Of a stretch of 64,000 nt of DNA, positions 48,540-58,782 are shown piece by piece (positions within the stretch are counted from its first letter, which is position 1; each line of letters starts with the position of its first letter). Under the pieces are notes generated by a model. It searched no databases. It was given only the letters and a program-made list of their open reading frames with translations, and was not told the DNA's origin. The position numbers and the translations under genes were made by a program. Source of the DNA: Nakamurella flava (lineage in GTDB: Bacteria > Actinomycetota > Actinomycetes > Mycobacteriales > Nakamurellaceae); assembly GCF_005298075.1 (NCBI RefSeq), contig NZ_SZZH01000003.1:496001-560000 (forward strand), written 5' to 3'.

Positions 48540-49763
48540 ATGAGCGCCCCGCTCGCCGGCCTCGTCGTGGTCGCCGTCCTGCTGGTGATCGGTGCCGTCG
48601 TGCTGCTCGGCGGGCGGTGGGTGCGGCATCGGATGGTGGAACCACCCGGGGTGCGAGCCGCCGCACTGGCCCTGCAGACGGCCGGACAGGCCGGCCCGCC
48701 GTTGCGGGCCGGGCTCACCGCCCGGGCCGCGGGGGAGGCGCTGCCCTGGTTGCGCACCCTGCTCGACACCCCGGGGGTGGCGCTCACCGACGCCGACGGC
48801 CGGGTGCTCGGCGAACACGGCCCGGGCGGGCACCACGCGGCCGACGCCCTGCCCGCCGCCCACGAGGCGGTGCGGGTCGGTCGGCGACAACTCGTCCCGG
48901 TGGCCGAGTGCGGACGGTCGGACTGTCCGGTCAGCCGGGCGGTGGTCGCCCCGCTGATCGTCGGCGAGCGCGCGGTCGGAGCCCTCGTGGTGCTGGCCGG
49001 CTCGGCCGTCGGACCGTTCCTCATCCGGGCCACCGACGAGACCGCCCGGTTCATCGGAACCCAGTTGGAACTGGCAGATCTCGACGAGTCGCGGGCCGAC
49101 CTGGCCCGGGCCGAGGTGCGCGCGCTGCGGGCGCAGATCTCCCCGCACTTCATCTACAACGCGCTGACCACCATCGCCTCGTTCGTCCGCAGCGACCCGG
49201 ACCGGGCCCGCGAACTGCTGCTGGAGTTCGCCGACTTCACCCGGTACTCCTTCCGGCAGGCCGGGGAGTTCACCACCCTGGCCGACGAGATGGCCAACAT
49301 CGACAAGTACCTCACCCTAGAGCGGGCCCGCTTCGGCGACCGCCTGCAGGTCCGGTGGCGGGTCGCCCCCGAGGTGCTGGGCGTCGTCGTCCCGTTCCTG
49401 GCCGTGCAACCGCTGGTCGAGAACGCCGTCCGGCACGGGCTGGCCGGACGACCGTCCGGCGGCACGGTCACCGTCGCCGCCGAGGACGCCGGGCCGGACT
49501 GCGTGATCAGCGTCGAGGACGACGGGGCCGGTATGGACCCGGCGACGGTCGGACAGGTCGTCGACGCCGACGAGCTGACCGAAAGTCTGGGTACCGCAGG
49601 TGATCTCGGTGGCAACCACGTCGGTCTGCGAAACGTGCACGACCGGCTCCGCGCGGCCTTCGGGGCCGACTACGGACTGGTGGTGGAGACCGCGCCCGGG
49701 GCCGGCACCAAGGTCATCGTGCGGCTGCCGAAATTCGCTCCCGGGGTCACCGCGGATTCCTGA
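48540..49763 (+). CDS. LytS/YehU-type sensor histidine kinase with GAF-like domain
   Basis: 407 aa from ATG 48540. One N-terminal helix (LVVVAVLLVIGAVVLLGG), then a GAF-like sensor region (about 60-190), then the His_kinase domain: LRAQISPHFIYNALTTIAS with the phosphoacceptor His, and an HATPase with Q-P-L-V-E-N-A-V-R-H-G and the D-D-G-A-G-M box. Pairs with the LytTR regulator 90 nt downstream. Kinases of this type in E. coli sense pyruvate or similar acids and control transporters. Confidence 0.9.
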   Translation: MSAPLAGLVVVAVLLVIGAVVLLGGRWVRHRMVEPPGVRAAALALQTAGQAGPPLRAGLTARAAGEALPWLRTLLDTPGVALTDADGRVLGEHGPGGHHAADALPAAHEAVRVGRRQLVPVAECGRSDCPVSRAVVAPLIVGERAVGALVVLAGSAVGPFLIRATDETARFIGTQLELADLDESRADLARAEVRALRAQISPHFIYNALTTIASFVRSDPDRARELLLEFADFTRYSFRQAGEFTTLADEMANIDKYLTLERARFGDRLQVRWRVAPEVLGVVVPFLAVQPLVENAVRHGLAGRPSGGTVTVAAEDAGPDCVISVEDDGAGMDPATVGQVVDADELTESLGTAGDLGGNHVGLRNVHDRLRAAFGADYGLVVETAPGAGTKVIVRLPKFAPGVTADS

Positions 49764-49852: not shown

Positions 49853-50728
49853 ATGACCACCCTGCCGCCGACCGCGGAACCGGCCCGTTCCGGCCTGGTC
49901 GTGCTCGCCGTCGACGACGAGGCTCCCGCGCTCGACGAGATCAGCTACCTGCTGGGCCGCGACCCGCGGGTCGGCGAGGTCCGCACCGCGGCCAACGCCA
50001 CCGCCGCGCTGGCCGCCCTGCAACCGGACGCCGACGGCCCGGTCCCGGACGCCGTGCTGCTCGACATCGCGATGCCGGGGTGGGACGGCATCGACCTGGC
50101 CCGCATGCTGTCCGGCCTGCCGCACCGCCCGGCGGTGGCGTTCCTGTCCGCGCACGACGATCGGGCGGTCGACGCCTACGAGATCGGTGCCGTGGACTAC
50201 CTGCTCAAACCGGTGCGGCCGGCCCGCCTCGCCGAGGCGGTCGGCCGGCTGTGCGCCGCCCGCGATCGGGCCGACGAGGGCCGCGAGCCGGCGGCCGCCG
50301 CCCCCTCGACAGCGACGACGAACGGTGGCGGGACGGGTCGCCCGGTCCCGGCCGACGATCGCGGGGCGACCATCGCGGTCGACCTCGCCGGGACGACGAC
50401 GCTGGTGCCGCGGTCGGCGGTGTGCTGGGCCGAGGCGCAGGGCGACTACGCGCGACTGCAGATGGCCGGCGGAGCGAGTCACCTGCTGCGGACACCGTTG
50501 TCCGTGCTGCAGGAGGAATGGGAACCGGCCGGATTCGTGCGCGTGCATCGCAGCTACCTGGTGGCGTTGGACCGCATCGTCGAGTTGCGCTCGGGGGAGG
50601 GCGGGCACCGGATCCGGGTGACCGGGCAGGCCCGTCCGGCCGATCTGCCGGTCAGTCGTCGGCACCTGCGGGAATTGAAGGAGCGGCTGCTGGCCGGCCG
50701 TCGCCCGGGGCGGCGGACCGGCCCGTGA
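49853..50728 (+). CDS. LytTR-family response regulator
   Basis: 291 aa. The receiver domain (about 15-130) has VDDE, the phosphoacceptor Asp in VLLDIAMPGWDG and the Lys of YLLKPVRPARL. An Ala/Gly linker leads to a LytTR DNA-binding domain (about 175-280): VCWAEAQGDYARLQ, E-W-E-P-A-G-F-V-R-V-H-R-S-Y-L-V. LytTR domains bind paired direct repeats; a matching pair lies at 56564-56593 before the DUF485-actP operon. Confidence 0.92.
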   Translation: MTTLPPTAEPARSGLVVLAVDDEAPALDEISYLLGRDPRVGEVRTAANATAALAALQPDADGPVPDAVLLDIAMPGWDGIDLARMLSGLPHRPAVAFLSAHDDRAVDAYEIGAVDYLLKPVRPARLAEAVGRLCAARDRADEGREPAAAAPSTATTNGGGTGRPVPADDRGATIAVDLAGTTTLVPRSAVCWAEAQGDYARLQMAGGASHLLRTPLSVLQEEWEPAGFVRVHRSYLVALDRIVELRSGEGGHRIRVTGQARPADLPVSRRHLRELKERLLAGRRPGRRTGP

Positions 50729-50755: not shown

Positions 50756-51163
50756 GTGAGTGAACGGCACGGCGGGGTCGAGCGCGGGGCCCGCGACCGC
50801 CAGTCCGGACGGCGGGTCCGCATCGTGCTGGCCGACCACCGGCCGGGACCGGCGCCGGTGCGCCGCGGCGTCGAGGTCGCCGAACAGACCGCGATCGGAC
50901 GGGAGCTGGTCCGGGGCCTGATGCGCGCGCAGCTCGCCGCGTCCCTGCGGATCGCTGCGGTCGCGGTGCTGCTCTTCGCGCCGTTGCCGCTGTTGTTCGC
51001 CGCGCTGCCGGTCGTGTCCTCGCTCGCGCCGTGGGGAGTGCCGCTGCCGTGGTGGGTGCTGGCCGTCCTGTCGTACCCGGCACTGCTGGGGCTGGCCCGG
51101 CTGCACCGTCGCCAGGCCGAACGCATCGAGCGGGAGTTCGCCGACCTGCTCGACCGGGGCTGA
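50756..51163 (+). CDS. Small two-helix membrane protein preceding an SSS symporter
   Basis: 135 aa, GTG start 27 nt after the response-regulator gene. Basic N-terminus of about 60 residues, then two hydrophobic helices (LRIAAVAVLLFAPLPLLFAAL and WWVLAVLSYPALLGLARL), then a charged end. Position and shape match the DUF485 partner of acetate/pyruvate-type symporters, but the sequence is not an obvious DUF485. Confidence 0.65.
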   Translation: MSERHGGVERGARDRQSGRRVRIVLADHRPGPAPVRRGVEVAEQTAIGRELVRGLMRAQLAASLRIAAVAVLLFAPLPLLFAALPVVSSLAPWGVPLPWWVLAVLSYPALLGLARLHRRQAERIEREFADLLDRG

Positions 51164-51172
51164 GGCGACAGG

Positions 51173-52678
51173 GTGAACCTCGGCCAACCGACGCTGTCCC
51201 TCGTCGCCATCGCCCTGGTGGTGCTGGCGACCGGGGTCGTCGGCGCGTTCGGCGGCCGGTTCGCCCGCACCACCGGCGACTTCCTCGTGGCCTCCCGCAC
51301 CGTCCGTCCGGCCTGGAACGCGGCCGCGATCAGCGGCGAGTACCTCTCCGCCGCATCGTTTCTCGGCGTCGCCGGGCTGGTCGCCGTCTACGGACCGGAC
51401 GCCCTGTGGTTCCCGGTCGGATTCACGGCGGGGTTCCTGGCGCTGCAACTGTTCGTCGCCGCACCGCTGCGGCGGTCGGGCGCGTACACGGTCCCCGACT
51501 TCGCCCAGATCCGTTGGGGGTCACAGCGGCTGCGGTCGCTGGTCACCGCCCTGGTACTGGTCATCGCCTGGGTCTACCTCGTCCCGCAACTGCAGGGCGC
51601 CGGCCTGGTGCTGTCCGAGGTGACCGGGTTGCCCCGCTGGGTCGGCGTGGTGACGGTGGCGCTGGTCGTCACGATCAACGTGGTCGCCGGCGGGATGCGG
51701 TCGATCACCCTGGTGCAGGCGGTGCAGTACTGGGTGAAGCTGGTGGCCATCGCCGCGCCGGTGCTGATCGTGGTGGTGCTGCTCCGCCCGGACGTCGCCG
51801 GCCTGTTCGCGGATCCGTGGGCGCAGCCGGGCGGCGGGCTCGGCGGCGGGCACCCCACCGCCGAGGTGTACTCGCTGATGCTGGCGACGTTCCTCGGCAC
51901 CATGGGGCTGCCGCACGTGCTGGTCCGCTTCTACACCAACGTCGACGGCGGGTCGGCCCGGGCGACCACTGTGCGGGTCATCGCCCTGCTCGGCGTCTTC
52001 TACGTGTTCCCCGGGGTGGCCGGTGTGCTGATGCACTCGCTGCTGCCGACGCCCGCGCCCGGCGACTCCGACACGCTGCTGCTGGCCCTGCCGGCCGTGA
52101 CACTGGGCGGCACCCTCGGGGCCGTGCTGTCCGCGCTGGTCGCCGCGGGCGCGATCGCGGCGTTCCTGGCCACCTCGTCGGGTCTGGTGGTCGCGGCCGC
52201 CGGGGTGCTGTCCACCGACGTGCTCCGCGGCCGGGTCCGCGACTTCCGGCTCGCCGCGGTGGCCGCCGGGCTGATCCCCCTGGCCCTGGCCCTGCCGGTC
52301 ACCGGCGTGGACATCTCCCGGGTGGTCGGGATGGCGTTCGCGGTGGCCGCGTCGACGTTCTGTCCGCTGCTGGTGCTCGGGATCTGGTGGCGCGGACTGA
52401 CCGTGGCCGGAGCGATGGCCGGGCTCATCGTGGGCGGCGCGACATCGCTGACCGCACTGGTGGTCTCGGTCGGGTTCGGCGACCGGCTGATCGACCCGGT
52501 GGGGTCACTGCTCGCCCAGCCGGCCGTCGCCACGGTGCCGCTGGCCTTCGCGACGATGATCGGGGTGTCGCTGGTGACCCGGTCGACCATCCCGCCGACC
52601 GTGGACGCCGTGCTGACCACGTTGCACGTCCCGGCGGCTGCGCGCCGGGCCTTCCGGGAGGAGGGCCGCGCGAGGTGA
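51173..52678 (+). CDS. Sodium:solute symporter (SSS family, monocarboxylate type)
   Basis: 501 aa, GTG start 9 nt after the small membrane gene. About 13 helices. Shows R-T-T-G-D-F-L-V-A-S-R-T-V, SGEYLSAASFLGVAG and ATFLGTMGLPHVLVRFYTN, conserved in ActP/MctC-like carriers of acetate, pyruvate and related acids. By context controlled by the LytS/LytTR pair just upstream. Substrate not known. Confidence 0.85.
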   Translation: MNLGQPTLSLVAIALVVLATGVVGAFGGRFARTTGDFLVASRTVRPAWNAAAISGEYLSAASFLGVAGLVAVYGPDALWFPVGFTAGFLALQLFVAAPLRRSGAYTVPDFAQIRWGSQRLRSLVTALVLVIAWVYLVPQLQGAGLVLSEVTGLPRWVGVVTVALVVTINVVAGGMRSITLVQAVQYWVKLVAIAAPVLIVVVLLRPDVAGLFADPWAQPGGGLGGGHPTAEVYSLMLATFLGTMGLPHVLVRFYTNVDGGSARATTVRVIALLGVFYVFPGVAGVLMHSLLPTPAPGDSDTLLLALPAVTLGGTLGAVLSALVAAGAIAAFLATSSGLVVAAAGVLSTDVLRGRVRDFRLAAVAAGLIPLALALPVTGVDISRVVGMAFAVAASTFCPLLVLGIWWRGLTVAGAMAGLIVGGATSLTALVVSVGFGDRLIDPVGSLLAQPAVATVPLAFATMIGVSLVTRSTIPPTVDAVLTTLHVPAAARRAFREEGRAR

Positions 52679-52743: not shown

Positions 52744-53484
52744 ATGACAGCGACGCCGCGCGCACTGGCCCGGGAGCGGACGATGGCCGACATCCTGCGG
52801 ATCGGCCGCGAGCACCTGGCCGCGCACGGGGCGGCGGCACTGTCGCTGCGGGCGGTGGCCCGAGATCTCGGCGTGGTGTCGTCCGCGGTCTACCGCTACG
52901 TGGCCAGCCGGGACGAGCTGCTGACCCTGCTGGTCGTCCAGGGCTACACCGAGTTGGGAGACGCGGTCGACGCGGCCGTGGATCGTGTCACCGTGGACGG
53001 TGGGGGCGCTCATCGCGCGCAGTTCGGGGCCCTGGCGACCGCGGTGCGCGACTTCGCGCACCGGGAGCCCGCGTTGTACGCCCTACTGTTCGGCGCGCCG
53101 GTCCCCGGGTACGCCGCACCGGCCGAGCGGACGACCGTCCCCGGTACCCGTGTGGTGGTCCGGCTCGTGCGGCTGGTGGCGGACGCCTACCGGGCCGGCG
53201 AGCTACGGGAACCGCCGAGCATCCCCCTGGGGGCCGGCCTGGCTGCCGACGTCGAGCGCATCATGGCCGATCCGACGGTACGACCGGCGGAACCCGCCGG
53301 GGCGCGACCGCTCCCGCCGGAGCTCGCCGCCCGGGTGCTCCTGGTCTGGCCGGCGCTGTTCGGAGCGGTGAGCTGGGAGGTGTTCGGCCAGTTCGGCGCC
53401 GGGACCCTCACGGATCCGGCGGCGCTGTTCGACCACTCGGTGGAGTTGCTGGCCCACCAGCTCGGTTTCGCCCCCGCCGCCTGA
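52744..53484 (+). CDS. TetR family transcriptional regulator (WHG-type C-terminal domain)
   Basis: 246 aa from the ATG at 52744. N-terminal HTH with ALSLRAVARDLGVVSSAVYRYVASRDELL; the C-terminal part with P-A-L-Y-A-L-L-F-G-A-P-V-P-G-Y resembles the TetR_C_33 (WHG) family. It could be a source for the GAGCA-G-TGCTC operators 4 kb upstream, but nothing shows this directly. Faces the GlsB gene across a shared terminator. Confidence 0.88.
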   Translation: MTATPRALARERTMADILRIGREHLAAHGAAALSLRAVARDLGVVSSAVYRYVASRDELLTLLVVQGYTELGDAVDAAVDRVTVDGGGAHRAQFGALATAVRDFAHREPALYALLFGAPVPGYAAPAERTTVPGTRVVVRLVRLVADAYRAGELREPPSIPLGAGLAADVERIMADPTVRPAEPAGARPLPPELAARVLLVWPALFGAVSWEVFGQFGAGTLTDPAALFDHSVELLAHQLGFAPAA

Positions 53485-53539: not shown

Positions 53540-53827
53540 TCAACGGTGGGTGACGCTGCGGCGACCACCGACCCGGGTCCAGATGAGCAGCACGATGACG
53601 GCGCCGATGATCGACCCGATGATGCCGGCCGGCTGCAGGAAGCCCTCGGCGGCGTCCTTGTGGAACAGCAGGTAGCCGAGGAACCCGCCGACGAACGAGC
53701 CGATGATGCCGATGACGATCGTCATCGGGATCGACAGGTTCTGCTTGCCGGGAACGAGCAGGCGGGCGACGGCGCCGGCGATGAGCCCGACGACGATGAA
53801 GCTGATGATGAGTCCGATCCAGTGCAT
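53540..53827 (-). CDS. GlsB/YeaQ/YmgE family stress-response membrane protein
   Basis: 95 aa from the ATG at 53827 after ACGGAGG. Three helices with IGLIISFIVVGLIAGAVARLL, GIIGSFVGGFLGYLLF and GIIGSIIGAVIVLLIW. The family is linked to general stress; the biochemical role is not known. Divergent from the LuxR response regulator with a 143-nt control region. Confidence 0.9.
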   Translation of the reverse strand: MHWIGLIISFIVVGLIAGAVARLLVPGKQNLSIPMTIVIGIIGSFVGGFLGYLLFHKDAAEGFLQPAGIIGSIIGAVIVLLIWTRVGGRRSVTHR

Positions 53828-53920
53828 GGCTGCCTCCGTGGGCGGGATGGGACCGGGGAGAGGAATCTCCGGTCGGGTCGTCCGTCGGAACGAGGGATGA
53901 CCCGTCCGAACGACACAACC

Positions 53921-53955
53921 ACCCCCAGGGAGGGTCCGGCACACCCCTAGGGAGG
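53921..53955. promoter_or_regulatory. Direct repeats in the glsB/luxR divergent region
   Basis: ACCCCCAGGGAGG (53921-53933) and ACCCCTAGGGAGG (53943-53955), 12 of 13 bases identical, 22 bp from start to start (two helical turns). Each has a CCC-AGGG core. Likely a regulator binding site, possibly for the orphan regulator itself. Confidence 0.45.
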
Positions 53956-53970
53956 TTTACGGTCCGTGAC

Positions 53971-54639
53971 ATGTCCCCACCTGACGGCGGTCCCATCACG
54001 GTGGCCCTGGTCGACGACTACGACGTCGTCCTCATCGGGGTGGCCAGCATCCTGGACCAGTACCGGGAGCGGGTGGTCATCGCCGAGATCGACGCCAACA
54101 GCTCGTTGCACGACGCGGTGGACGTCGTGCTCTACGACTCGTTCGCCCAGCCGGAGGCCGACCACGACGAGATCGAAGTACTGGTCGCCAACCCGCGGGC
54201 CCGGCGGGTCGTCGTCTACACCTGGAACTTCCACCCGGATCTGATCCGCAGTGCCCGCGCGAAGGGTGCCGACGGCTACCTGTCCAAGGCGCTGCCGGCC
54301 CGCGACCTGGTCGCCGCGCTCGAGAGGGTGCACGCGGGCGAGATGGTCGTCAGCGACCCACCGCGGGGGACGCGCACCGTCACCGGGCTGGACTGGCCCG
54401 GCCGGCGGGAGGGGCTGACGGACCGGGAGGCCGAGATCCTCGCCCTGATCACCCAGGGCAAGAGCAACGCCGAGGTCGCCGCCCTGACGTTCCTCAGCCC
54501 CAACACGGTGAAGTCCTACATCCGCACCGTCTACCGCAAGATCGGCGTGGCCAGCCGGACGCAGGCCGTGCTGTGGGGGATCGACAACGGTTTCGCCCCC
54601 GACCACCACCGCATCGACCATTGGCGCGGCGGGCCCTAG
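53971..54639 (+). CDS. Orphan NarL/LuxR-type response regulator
   Basis: 222 aa. Receiver domain (about 8-125) with VDDYD, Asp in VVLYDSF, Thr of VVVYTWN and Lys of YLSKALPA; LuxR HTH (about 145-205) with LTDREAEILALITQGKSNAEVAALTFLSPNTVKSYIRTVYRKIGV. No kinase gene is adjacent. The loop after the phospho-Asp is longer than usual. The start has only a weak ribosome binding site. Confidence 0.9.
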   Translation: MSPPDGGPITVALVDDYDVVLIGVASILDQYRERVVIAEIDANSSLHDAVDVVLYDSFAQPEADHDEIEVLVANPRARRVVVYTWNFHPDLIRSARAKGADGYLSKALPARDLVAALERVHAGEMVVSDPPRGTRTVTGLDWPGRREGLTDREAEILALITQGKSNAEVAALTFLSPNTVKSYIRTVYRKIGVASRTQAVLWGIDNGFAPDHHRIDHWRGGP

Positions 54640-54755
54640 TTGGAGGTTGATAGATTGCGTGAACTTCAATTGTCAAAGATTGCGTTAGCTGAAACGGTGA
54701 GTATCGTCGAGCTGTAACCCGGAGCTAGCCGAGTGTTGGGGGTGTTCACAAAGAA
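54640..54755 (+). other. AT-richer leader of the TIR-domain gene; islet left edge
   Basis: GC content falls abruptly after the response-regulator stop. Contains AGATTGCGT twice (54652-54660, 54677-54685) and GCGTTAGCT at 54682-54690, which recurs at the end of the islet. A TTG-started 20-codon frame (54655-54717) after GGAGGT is probably chance. No clear promoter was identified. Confidence 0.5.
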
Positions 54756-56504
54756 ATGAGTCGGCTGTCGACTATCGCTCTTAGTTCTGGGCAAATGCAG
54801 TTGCTGCGGACAATCTTCTGGTTTGCAACGCATGAGTCATTCCGTGGCCCTGTCACATCTTGGCCGTCCTGGGATGCCGTAGTTGGTCAGACTGACCTTG
54901 ATGAATCTATAGACCTAGACGCAGAGGTGCAGTCCCTCCCCTCAATATCGCTGCCTTCAAGTACCTATACGTTGCTGTGGCGGAGTGCTCCGCGCGCCGG
55001 GCTTAGTATTCAGGAAAGCGAGACAGTGGGATTAACCCTGGCCGGACTTTGCCGCATCAACGAGCAGGCTGCGACCCTGGTTTCTCGATTCCTCGGTTCC
55101 TGTGCTGAAGAAGAACGCGCGCTGCCCATCGATCCGAATGGGGTGCGACGGGGCTTCATTGAACTTGAGCCTCGCCTGATGTCCCAAATTCGGGACTTGG
55201 ATGGGCTCGTTGGGCATGTCAGTATGACGGAGCGTGCTGTTGGCGAGATGCTCATTCACGAGTTCATGCCTCTGGCGGAGGAGCATTCGAGCTTCAAGTA
55301 TCGAGTTCCTTTGGGCGGGAGACGCCTGCGACCCCTGCGGGGCGTTGATTCGGTGAGTGAGTACCTGGGTAGAATCGAAGGCCTCCAGTCGAACGGCCAA
55401 GAAGAGCCACGGGTGGCAGGAGTCGAGGTTATAAGCAGACGCGTGGAACGCTCGGAGAAGCTCACCAACAGAGGAGGTGGCACGATGTCAAAGAGACACT
55501 CGAAGGTTTTCATAGCCTCCTCGACGGAGGGTTTACGGGTGGCTAATGCTATCAAAAATGGTCTCGAGTATGGGTTCGAGTCGACCATATGGACGCAGGG
55601 TGTCTTTGACCCCGGTTCTTACGTGCTGGAGCAGCTTATCGCCCAGACGAAGCAGAAGGATTTTGCTATCTTTGTGGTCGATGCCGACGACGTAACGCGA
55701 AGTAGGGACCAGGACAAGAGAACTACGCGTGATAACGTCATACTAGAGCTAGGTCTGTTCATTGGAGCTCTTGGGCTAAGTCGGTGTTTCATGGTTTTTG
55801 ACCGCGAGAGACGGCCGGACCTGCCCACCGATCTATTAGGGGTCACGCCCGTCGACTACAGGGTATATAGCGACGAGAACTATGATGCCTCCGTGGGTTC
55901 GGCAGTCTCAAGATTGTCGGAGGCGATGTCTAAGCTGGGGCCGCTTAGCAAGGACTCCGCGGCTACGGATTTTGTTGGGCGCGATTCGAGAGTTTCGATA
56001 TCAGTTCGAGACCCGAATTCACTTCATTCGCCAGGACCAATTCTGAGTAATACTCAGAGCGGTGCCCTCTATAGGAATCTAGCCAAATCTTGGAGTTTCA
56101 TGGTGGAATTTAGTTACATTAAACGAGTTCCTGATCCTGGTTCTGGAAATGTCATTGGTTCAGTAAAAGCAGAGATTCCAACAACCTGGACGGAGCTCCT
56201 GGTTGAGGCGGGGCGCTTCTTGTATCAAGGAGTGAGTGCACCAGGTCTTGTTGTGCCAATGGCCCGCCTTGCAAACCGCGTGATTGTCGAAGATGGGTCG
56301 TATTTCCCTCCCGACTTTGAGCGCTCCAACGGCGTTTCGGTGGGACTGGAGCCCATCACAGACGTGCTCGCAATGTTTGAGGGCCTGGGGCTGGTGCGAC
56401 GGCAGGAGCTTGGAACGTCTTTCAGTGAGCGGCAATGGGAGTTCACCGATCTCGGCATTCGTACGTATTCGGAATTGATTGGTAGTGAAGGGGCGAAGCG
56501 TTAG
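54756..56504 (+). CDS. TIR-like (CAP12/Pycsar-effector type) domain protein, candidate anti-phage effector
   Basis: 582 aa. Residues 1-243: domain not recognised, beginning LSSGQMQLLRTIFWF and ending RGVDSVSEYLGRIEGL. Residues 249-370: TIR-like domain of the CAP12/PycTIR family (KVFIASSTEGLRVA, FAIFVVDADDVTRSR, RDNVILELGLFIGALGLSR, DLLGVTPVDY). The Glu of NVILELG (residue 331) is the likely NADase catalytic residue. Residues of about 400-582 end in a possible winged helix (ITDVLAMFEGLGLVRRQ, WEFTDLGIRTYSEL). Such domains destroy NAD+ when a cyclic nucleotide or phage trigger is sensed. Base use is foreign: about 50% GC against about 70%, with TTA codons. The upstream start has a weak site, whereas AGGAGGT stands before the in-frame ATG at 55485. 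No cyclase gene is adjacent. Confidence 0.8.
   Translation: MSRLSTIALSSGQMQLLRTIFWFATHESFRGPVTSWPSWDAVVGQTDLDESIDLDAEVQSLPSISLPSSTYTLLWRSAPRAGLSIQESETVGLTLAGLCRINEQAATLVSRFLGSCAEEERALPIDPNGVRRGFIELEPRLMSQIRDLDGLVGHVSMTERAVGEMLIHEFMPLAEEHSSFKYRVPLGGRRLRPLRGVDSVSEYLGRIEGLQSNGQEEPRVAGVEVISRRVERSEKLTNRGGGTMSKRHSKVFIASSTEGLRVANAIKNGLEYGFESTIWTQGVFDPGSYVLEQLIAQTKQKDFAIFVVDADDVTRSRDQDKRTTRDNVILELGLFIGALGLSRCFMVFDRERRPDLPTDLLGVTPVDYRVYSDENYDASVGSAVSRLSEAMSKLGPLSKDSAATDFVGRDSRVSISVRDPNSLHSPGPILSNTQSGALYRNLAKSWSFMVEFSYIKRVPDPGSGNVIGSVKAEIPTTWTELLVEAGRFLYQGVSAPGLVVPMARLANRVIVEDGSYFPPDFERSNGVSVGLEPITDVLAMFEGLGLVRRQELGTSFSERQWEFTDLGIRTYSELIGSEGAKR
55472..55487 (+). promoter_or_regulatory. Internal ribosome binding site and start within the TIR gene
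   Basis: AGGAGGT (55472-55478), six nt, ATG at 55485, in frame with the large ORF (codon 244). It would give a 339-aa product, MSKRHSKVFIAS..., beginning five residues before the TIR core. Confidence 0.55.
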
Positions 56505-56563
56505 CTTGTCCGCCTGCGTCGGTCCGGACGTTTGGTCCGCGACTGAGGGGCGTTGCCGGGTCG

Positions 56564-56593
56564 ACCGTTCGTCGTGCTGCGGCGACCGTTCGT
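56564..56593 (+). promoter_or_regulatory. LytTR-type binding site (two ACCGTTCGT repeats, 12-bp spacing)
   Basis: ACCGTTCGT at 56564-56572 and again at 56585-56593, exactly 12 bp between. Both fit the published LytTR consensus [TA][AC][CA]GTTN[AG][TG] with 12-13-bp spacing. Located about 55 bp upstream of the TAGCGT box of the DUF485-actP operon. Confidence 0.65.
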
Positions 56594-56647
56594 CGCATAG
56601 ACGGTGGCGCTGCCCGAACGGGTGGCGCGAACCGGACACCACGGACC

Positions 56648-56653
56648 TAGCGT
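56648..56653 (+). promoter_or_regulatory. -10 box of the DUF485-actP operon
   Basis: TAGCGT with no recognisable -35, as expected for an activator-dependent promoter. Start near 56660 puts the LytTR repeats at about -96 to -67. Confidence 0.45.
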
Positions 56654-56710
56654 GCGCTGCATCACACCGCCGGTGCAGCCGGCGGAGATGCCCTGCGACA
56701 AGGAGGTCCC

Positions 56711-57091
56711 ATGGCCGAACCGCCCACCCCCGCCGCCGCGATCACCGCGGCCGAGTGGGAGTCCATCCAGGCCGGCGCCGAATTCGGCCGGCTGCGCCGC
56801 GCCGTCCGGTCCTTCATCTTCCCCACCACGGTCGCCTTCCTGACCTGGTACCTGCTGTACGTGCTGATGGCGGCCTTCGCCCGGCCGATCATGAACACGC
56901 AGGTGTTCGGCAACATCACGTTCGGGCTGATCTTCGGGCTGCTGCAGTTCGTCACCACCTTCGGCATCGCGGTGCTGTACGCCCGGTACGCGAACCGGAA
57001 GATGGATCCGCTGGCCGACGAGCTCCGGGACGACATCGAATCCGGCGTCACCACCGGCAGTGCCCGGGGCGCCACGGGAGGCGCACGATGA
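56711..57091 (+). CDS. DUF485 family membrane protein, symporter partner
   Basis: 126 aa, ATG after AAGGAGGT. The cytosolic N-terminus (E-W-E-S-I-Q-A-G-A-E-F-G-R-L-R-R-A-V-R-S-F-I-F-P) leads to two helices with LTWYLLYVLMAAFA and GLIFGLLQFVTTFGIAVLYARYA, then K-M-D-P-L-A-D-E-L-R. This is the characteristic DUF485 pattern found before actP. Overlaps the symporter ATG (ATGA). Confidence 0.93.
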   Translation: MAEPPTPAAAITAAEWESIQAGAEFGRLRRAVRSFIFPTTVAFLTWYLLYVLMAAFARPIMNTQVFGNITFGLIFGLLQFVTTFGIAVLYARYANRKMDPLADELRDDIESGVTTGSARGATGGAR

Positions 57092-58782
57092 GCACGCAGG
57101 TGCTGGCCGACACCGTGCAGGTCGCCGCGGAGGCCGAGAGCAACCACCAGACCCTGACGATCGGGCTGTTCGCCGTGTTCGTCGCCGCCACCCTCGGCAT
57201 CACCATCTGGGCCAGCCGGCAGACCCGCACCGCGGCCGACTTCTACGCCGGGGGAAGGTCTTTCACCGGTTGGCAGAACGGCCTGGCCATCGGCGGCGAC
57301 TACATGTCGGCCGCCTCGTTCCTCGGCATCGCCGGGACCATCGCGCTCTACGGCTACGACGGGTTCCTCTACTCCATCGGCTTCCTCGTCGCCTGGCTGG
57401 TCGCACTGCTGCTGGTCGCCGAGCTGATGCGCAACACCGGCAAGTTCACGATGGCCGACGTGCTCTCGTTCCGGATGCGGCAGCGCCCGGTGCGGACGGC
57501 GGCGTCGCTGTCCACCGTGGTCGTGTCGATCTTTTACCTGCTGGCCCAGATGGTCGGCGCCGGAACGCTTGTCGCGCTGCTGCTCGGCATCACCTCGCCG
57601 ACCGCCAAGAACCTGGTGGTCGTCGGCGTCGGCATCCTGATGATCGTCTACGTGGTCTTCGGCGGCATGAAGGGCACCACCTGGGTGCAGATCATCAAGG
57701 CCGTCCTGCTCATCACCGGCGCCGGCATCATGACGATCTGGGTGCTCGCCAAGTACGGCTTCAACGTCTCCTCGCTGCTCGGTGCCGCGGCCGAGAACTC
57801 CGGCAAGGAGGGCTTCCTGCAGCCCGGCCTGTACTACGGCAAGGAGGGCGCGACCACCTGGGCGACGATCGTCTCCAAGCTCGACTTCATCTCGCTGGCC
57901 CTGGCTCTCGTCCTCGGCACCGCCGGACTGCCGCACATCCTGATCCGCTTCTACACGGTGCCGGACTCCAAGACCGCGCGGAAGTCGGTCAACTGGGCCA
58001 TCGCGATCATCGGCCTCTTCTACCTGATGACCCTGGTCATCGGCTTCGGCGCGGCCGCGCTGCTCAGCCAGAAGGAGATCACCGACCGAAACCCGGCCGG
58101 CAACACCGCGGCACCGCAGTTGGCGGAGGCGCTGGGCGGGGTGGGCACCGGGCTCGGCGCGGTGATGCTGTCGGTGATCGCCGCGGTCGCGTTCGCCACC
58201 ATCCTGGCGGTCGTCGCCGGCCTGACCCTGGCGTCGTCGTCGTCGATGGCGCACGACTTCTACGCCAACGTCATCCGTAAGGGAAAGGCGACGGAGAAGG
58301 AGGAGGTCAAGGTCGGGCGGATCTCCGCGGTCATCATCGGGGCCGTCTCCATCGCCCTGGCCATCCCGGCGCAGAGCCTGAACGTCGCGTTCCTGGTCGC
58401 CCTGGCCTTCGCCATCGCCGCGTCGGCCAACCTCCCGTCGATCCTGCTGTCGCTGTTCTGGAAGCGGTTCAACACCCGCGGCGCGACCTGGGGCATCTAC
58501 GGCGGTCTGGGCTCGGCGTTGTTCCTGCTGCTGTTCTCACCGGTCGTGTCGGGCAAGCCGGCCAATCCGACGACCGGGAAGTCGGCCAGCCTGTTCACCG
58601 ACCCGTCCATCGACTTCCACTGGTTCCCGCTGGACAACCCCGGGCTCGTCTCGATCCCGCTCGGCTTCCTGTTCGCGATCGTCGGGACGCTCACCAGTCG
58701 TGAGCTGGACAAGGCCAAGTGGGCCGAGATGGAGGTGCGTTCGCTGACCGGGGCGCACGCCGAGAAGGCGGCCAACCACTGA
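57088..58782 (+). CDS. actP: Cation/acetate-type symporter (ActP/MctC family)
   Basis: 564 aa from the ATG at 57088; the longer open frame upstream overlaps DUF485. SSS-family carrier with about 13 helices: R-T-A-A-D-F-Y-A-G-G-R-S-F, GDYMSAASFLGIAG, LGTAGLPHILIRFYTV, and a long periplasmic loop (GKEGFLQPGLYYGKEG). Members carry acetate, propionate or pyruvate with Na+ or H+; which one is not certain here. Predicted target of the LytTR regulator. A strong terminator follows. Confidence 0.88.
   Translation: MSTQVLADTVQVAAEAESNHQTLTIGLFAVFVAATLGITIWASRQTRTAADFYAGGRSFTGWQNGLAIGGDYMSAASFLGIAGTIALYGYDGFLYSIGFLVAWLVALLLVAELMRNTGKFTMADVLSFRMRQRPVRTAASLSTVVVSIFYLLAQMVGAGTLVALLLGITSPTAKNLVVVGVGILMIVYVVFGGMKGTTWVQIIKAVLLITGAGIMTIWVLAKYGFNVSSLLGAAAENSGKEGFLQPGLYYGKEGATTWATIVSKLDFISLALALVLGTAGLPHILIRFYTVPDSKTARKSVNWAIAIIGLFYLMTLVIGFGAAALLSQKEITDRNPAGNTAAPQLAEALGGVGTGLGAVMLSVIAAVAFATILAVVAGLTLASSSSMAHDFYANVIRKGKATEKEEVKVGRISAVIIGAVSIALAIPAQSLNVAFLVALAFAIAASANLPSILLSLFWKRFNTRGATWGIYGGLGSALFLLLFSPVVSGKPANPTTGKSASLFTDPSIDFHWFPLDNPGLVSIPLGFLFAIVGTLTSRELDKAKWAEMEVRSLTGAHAEKAANH

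Follow-up and report, generated by a model that had tools for sequence, protein, structure and literature searches.

LytTR response regulators that target transporter genes are known from the BtsS/BtsR and YpdA/YpdB systems of Escherichia coli (PMC5552118, in the part of its text available). A canonical LytTR site consists of two 9-bp direct repeats that lie 10–13 bp apart, according to the accessible portion of PMC11347149. CrbS/CrbR, in the accessible portions of two articles, is an acetate two-component system with an SSF module that controls acs and, in P. fluorescens, also actP (PMC7918813, PMC5715377). SCO1220, a LytTR regulator of Streptomyces coelicolor, figures as an orphan without a name in a review (PMC9739842, as far as its available text goes), and our literature search, which had most subscription journals outside its coverage, found no actinobacterial LytTR regulon for mctC or actP. 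Here, we show by comparing a 64,000-nucleotide stretch of the Nakamurella flava genome (the window) with loci of its relatives that a putative LytTR operator is conserved, is nearly confined to promoters of DUF485-transporter genes, is found together with a LytTR gene, and is phased to the −10 element. That the regulator binds the DNA, is phosphorylated and activates instead of repressing is our inference from these patterns, as is the nature of its ligand. It is likely that the repeats are the operator of the sole LytTR regulator, which in its phosphorylated form would activate DUF485-mctC through a promoter with a −10 element only.

The candidate operator is made up of two exact copies of ACCGTTCGT on the forward strand (56564–56572 and 56585–56593), the second starting 21 bp after the first. 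An earlier note on this DNA had described these copies and the 12 bp between them, and we find them as described, with no such pair in 100 dinucleotide shuffles; the stretch shared by both repeats is longer than stated there and spans the 13 bp of CGACCGTTCGTCG (56562–56574 and 56583–56595). The spacing falls inside the canonical 10–13 bp. A regular expression written from the 9-mer LytTR consensus, which fits both copies, matches nothing else in the window; the agreement with consensus and spacing claimed previously holds on this consensus. No window pair of at least 20 bits exists besides the one at 56564, and thus no second operator is seen upstream of the kinase or SSF1. We also ran the genome search for more ACCGTTCGT pairs that the note had proposed: in the 4.84-Mb genome, 56564–56593 is the sole place with fewer than two mismatches. 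Places with two or three mismatches were dropped as further operators because they look chance-like, with 13 matches at up to three mismatches vs 10 for the backwards pattern that served as control.

How well is this arrangement conserved? We assembled 122 DUF485 loci. Whole genomes gave 42 of them (39 of 61 genomes had any), and the other 80 are among 84 that were found on named genome contigs; the 119 loci whose upstream sequence is 300 bp or longer were scored for chains of the 9-mer. A chain score of at least 8 is reached by 51 of the 119 upstream regions vs 0.3% of dinucleotide shuffles, and a score of at least 10 by 40 vs 0.03%, in loci that share ancestry, so that the counts are not independent; the placement of an operator in front of the transporter operon, as proposed before, is thus kept in many relatives. 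The arrays contain two to four repeats, mostly 20–22 bp apart; many Nocardiopsis, for instance, show steps of 20-22-20, and some Streptomyces show 21-22-20. The fifth base of the 9-mer is T or C across relatives, and the conserved unit is longer than the 9-mer, as the operator profile reads cgACCGYTCGKCGca. In the relative G002, about four GCCGCTCATCGGCACCG units stand in tandem upstream of DUF485 and before the last full repeat, and every unit contains a stretch that resembles a half-site (L196:10736–10830).

The repeats occur with the regulator gene. Chain scores of at least 8 are found at 39 of 55 loci with a LytTR gene in the flank, at 6 of 30 loci of whole genomes with LytTR, at 5 of 15 loci with LytTR elsewhere in the genome, at one of the two loci classed as undetermined in LytTR status, and at none of 17 LytTR-free loci, of which three come from metagenome bins, where LytTR absence is weak. 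When a profile trained on 36 named-contig loci is run on the 42 whole-genome loci, the top ranks go to 20 of the 30 LytTR loci (at least 12.8 bits, a cut set after the ranking had been viewed) and to none of the 12 LytTR-free loci, the best of which scores 10.6 bits (Fisher 7e-5, on related loci). Ten of the 30 loci in LytTR genomes fall under the cut, three of them second DUF485 copies; by eye, weaker repeats are present in L026, L029, L030, L039 and L042, and none in L035 and L041. Within the genus of the window, the profile separates 3/3 LytTR loci, the window included, from 0/6 (p 0.012), and the 9-mer chain at 8 or more gives 2/3 vs 0/6. This comparison of sequences supports the link between regulator and operator that the note had drawn. 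That the pair is instead a chance direct repeat has some ground in the fact that CG-rich repeats arise in GC-rich genomes, and a loose pattern with ACCGNTCG, which matched 92 places in 41 of 61 genomes vs 57 places for its reversed control, was dropped as evidence for being largely chance-like; the empty shuffles, the conservation and the co-occurrence with the regulator all contradict chance, which we hold to be extremely improbable.

Which proteins does the locus encode? The gene at 49853–50728 (forward strand) has both a receiver domain (PF00072, 8.9e-21) and a LytTR domain (PF04397, 7.1e-16) and is thus a LytTR response regulator; it is the one such regulator that the window had been said to contain, and the genome search found no LytTR gene besides it. 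The best NCBIfam model for it is that of BtsR (NF008677), at 119 bits below the cut-off of 246, and the best stretches in a PDB search lie in the receiver part only. The kinase gene in front of it (48540–49763, forward strand) has His_kinase (PF06580) and HATPase_c domains, with no 5TM-LYT model at E up to 1 in Pfam and GAF only below the cut-off. We take a LytS kinase to be one with a 5TM-LYT membrane domain and His_kinase, and 'LytS' is a loose name here because Pfam gives His_kinase and HATPase_c without 5TM-LYT; of the 'LytS/LytTR pair' described previously, the LytTR member stands. Both genes are followed on the forward strand by a small protein, TMx (50756–51163), with no family above cut-off and a counterpart in the relative G006 that has a DUF485 match below cut-off, and by SSF1 (51173–52678), the transporter paralogue of this regulatory block and a possible transporter-type co-sensor for the kinase.

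The putative target operon starts with a gene for a DUF485 small membrane protein (56711–57091, forward strand; PF04341, 2.4e-31) and continues with SSF2 (57088–58782, forward strand), whose start codon we chose at the overlap with the DUF485 stop. SSF2 scores 863.9 bits with the MctC model NF058657 (cut-off 670), and its assignment as ActP was rejected at 549.6 bits with NF006903, under the cut-off of 750; the operon previously called DUF485-actP accordingly contains an MctC-type monocarboxylate SSF transporter. SSF1 and SSF2 differ at an otherwise fixed acidic site, as all 65 SSF1 copies read GEY[LV]SAAS, with E, and all 94 SSF2 copies read [GS]D[YF][ML]SAASF, with D. This site presumably corresponds to the region of the cation-site aspartate of PutP.

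Between the block and the operator, the window has genes for a TetR regulator (52744–53484), a transglycosylase-associated small protein (53540–53944, reverse strand), a LuxR-type response regulator (53971–54639) and a CAP12/Pycsar-type TIR protein (54756–56504), the last ending 59 bp before the operator. An AT-richer island covers 54640–56504, with 54.5% GC in the TIR gene and 47% before it, the window having 70%. We take the TIR gene for a probable defence gene that was inserted in the stretch from SSF1 to the operator. Among the 80 relatives' loci, 52 hold the kinase, the LytTR regulator and SSF1 inside the fetched flank of the DUF485-transporter genes, in several gene orders, so that these genes are normally linked and the 6-kb gap seen here is exceptional; the regulator is present in 57 loci, and 19 have DUF485 and SSF2 only. 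The distance from the SSF1 match to the DUF485 match is 275 bp in G013, a genome of the same genus, and about 3.2 kb with other frames between in G002, and the gap is therefore best read as genes inserted between formerly adjacent parts.

The TetR and LuxR-type genes lie nearer to the operator than the LytTR gene does, and one of their products, or yet another regulator, could bind the repeats and merely co-occur with the LytTR block. Against this, tblastn at 1e-6 finds a relative of the LuxR-type gene in 2 and of the TetR gene in none of the 80 loci, where the operator still recurs; the one DNA-binding protein that recurs with the block is the LytTR regulator, and the repeat length and 12-bp spacing are LytTR-like (PMC11347149, accessible portion), which makes another regulator distinctly unlikely. 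As judged from the sequence, the sole LytTR regulator of the cell very probably docks at the repeats upstream of the transporter.

The distance from the start of half-site 2 to a −10-like element, TAGCGT (56648–56653, forward strand), is 63 bp; boxes of this type recur in relatives. Placing the T of this element at −12 puts the repeats at −96 to −67, the same positions that the earlier note had given, and its description of a −10 without a −35 is borne out as well, the best TTGACA match at 16–19 bp spacing being 2/6. We searched all 79 loci with at least two repeats for YYTANNNT boxes at 30–130 bp, counted from the last repeat's start, and 66 have one (13 do not). The distances are 52–54 in 46 loci, 63 in two (the window and G002), 73–75 in 17 and 84 in one, with none elsewhere, so that box positions differ by steps of one helical turn and all 66 box-bearing loci are in phase; L021, a LytTR-free locus with a weak pair and a box at 56, was left out of this count, which would be 66/67 with it. 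Among seven periods tested, the vector strength peaks at 10.5 bp, at 0.93, and at 0.94 in the de-duplicated set (45 of 54 loci with a box). The 21-bp step between the two main distance groups may in part reflect a degenerate extra repeat missed by the profile, and the cases at 63 and 84 are more telling for phasing than these groups. Of seven places outside the profile training, five (L237, L238, L239, L227 and L198) lack a box by this rule. The other two have one, both at in-phase distances, which are 74 for L234, counted from its second repeat, and 64 for L235, the promoter of the MFS gene in G254.

Does the regulator activate or repress? CoxC, a known LytTR repressor, has three repeats spaced two turns apart (PMC11347149, accessible portion), and the DUF485 gene is kept at twelve whole-genome loci without LytTR, both of which would suit a LytTR regulator that binds the repeats and represses. 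However, in the same portion of that source the CoxC repeats overlap the −35, whereas those of the window would lie at −96 to −67 in phase with the −10, and there is no −35 to be covered, as none of the 66 operator loci has at least 5 of 6 TTGACA matches; repression is therefore unlikely. A −35 regained in LytTR-free loci is not supported either, with one among the 10 scorable of 17 such loci.

A second input may act on the same core promoter. An imperfect CRP/GlxR-like palindrome, CGTGCGCTGCATCACA (56651–56666, forward strand), overlaps the end of the −10 and matches TGTGA-N6-TCACA, which we took as the consensus for scoring CRP-type palindromes, at 8 of 10 positions. Of 45 de-duplicated loci, 31 have a palindrome of at least 8/10 over the core promoter, vs 0.8% of letter shuffles. 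Its position depends on the lineage and is mostly +3, +10 or −12 relative to the −10; in the −12 case the −10 itself supplies part of the match. The Nakamurella flava genome has CRP-type HTH matches, two of them above cut-off. By eye, the LytTR-free genome G004 of the same genus keeps TAGCGT and a CRP-like palindrome and has no repeats. The CRP-like site might provide a carbon-status input.

Is the operator restricted to these promoters? In the 80 named loci (1,155,702 bp), 117 pairs of at least 24 bits lie upstream of DUF485, a count that takes overlapping pairs of one array apart and is partly circular as the profile was trained on the scanned loci, and 0 lie elsewhere, which is not circular. 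An extended pattern occurs once each in 11 of 19 genomes, picked mostly for strong arrays, and is absent from the other eight, with 0 for the reversed control; by coordinates, ten of these places are upstream of DUF485. The eleventh (L227) consists of operator-like repeats before an acetate-CoA ligase gene (acs) in G088, Nocardiopsis sp. NRRL B-16309, the genome of L079, and this gene is a possible second member of the regulon.

A stricter pattern is found at eight places in 7 of 396 genomes of the phylum (control 0). All seven have a LytTR gene, against a base rate of 154/396 counted regardless of the block (hypergeometric 0.0012), and the pattern thus occurs in at most 7 of the 154 LytTR-carrying genomes. 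It stands upstream of DUF485 in Nakamurella flava, G370 and G430 (tblastn), before a lactate-type MFS gene in G254 (L-lactate model 302.5 bits, cut-off 320) and, in G169, roughly 1 kb ahead of an SSF gene from which small frames separate it. In G211 it lies inside a minisatellite, and in G300 before a frame that by eye resembles a phosphatidyltransferase and is seemingly unrelated. G006, of the same genus as the window, has the regulatory block and no DUF485 match to the query; a weaker pair (21.5 bits), for which no −10 box was found, lies there between SSF1 and a SatP-type gene above the acetate uptake transporter cut-off.

How might the system operate? The linked histidine kinase would phosphorylate the LytTR regulator upon a signal that is probably a small monocarboxylate, for example acetate, pyruvate or lactate, ligands suggested by the operator preceding an MctC-type transporter and, in single cases, acs, a lactate-type MFS gene and a SatP-type gene. 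Once phosphorylated, the regulator would sit on the repeats along one face of the DNA helix and recruit RNA polymerase to the −10-only core promoter, and the polymerase would then switch on DUF485-mctC. In a wider and tentative reading, which is possible but rather doubtful, actinobacteria would possess a two-component system gated by a transporter, in which SSF1, altered to E at the acidic site, senses a monocarboxylate on behalf of the kinase together with its DUF485-like partner. The LytTR regulator would then drive whichever importer the genome has (MctC, SatP or lactate-type MFS) through the phased array.

These results propose a target and a function for a kinase–regulator block that lies beside DUF485-transporter genes at most of the relatives' loci, and they offer a sequence rule composed of repeat, spacing and phase to the −10. 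They may also present a case in which one regulator keeps its operator while the transporter behind it has changed. MctC of Corynebacterium glutamicum is of the same transporter family as SSF2. A LytTR gene was found in five of 14 control genomes, C. glutamicum being one of the 14 and not among the five, and mctC should therefore be regulated otherwise there, with RamA and RamB as its regulators. The MFS gene of G254 also matches the oxalate/formate family, well below the cut-off, and YhjX is of that kind. Similar to BtsS/BtsR and YpdA/YpdB, the locus combines a LytTR response regulator, for which the BtsR model is the best if sub-cut-off hit, with a transporter gene as target. Unlike in these systems, Pfam gives no LytS membrane domain for the kinase, an SSF transporter accompanied by DUF485 is the main target, and the repeats read ACCGYTCGKCG in arrays of two to four; the host belongs to the Actinomycetota, whereas the available text of PMC5552118 covers gamma-proteobacteria. 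The arrays resemble the sites of CoxC and RcoM in having three direct repeats about two helical turns apart, but CoxC and RcoM are single-protein gas sensors, CoxC represses over the −35, and the RcoM repeat is TTCNNGCA (PMC11347149, accessible portion). Finally, in CrbS/CrbR, as the accessible text of its sources has it, the SSF module is fused to the kinase, whereas in the window SSF1 is encoded on its own next to the kinase and regulator genes, and this regulator is of the LytTR type.
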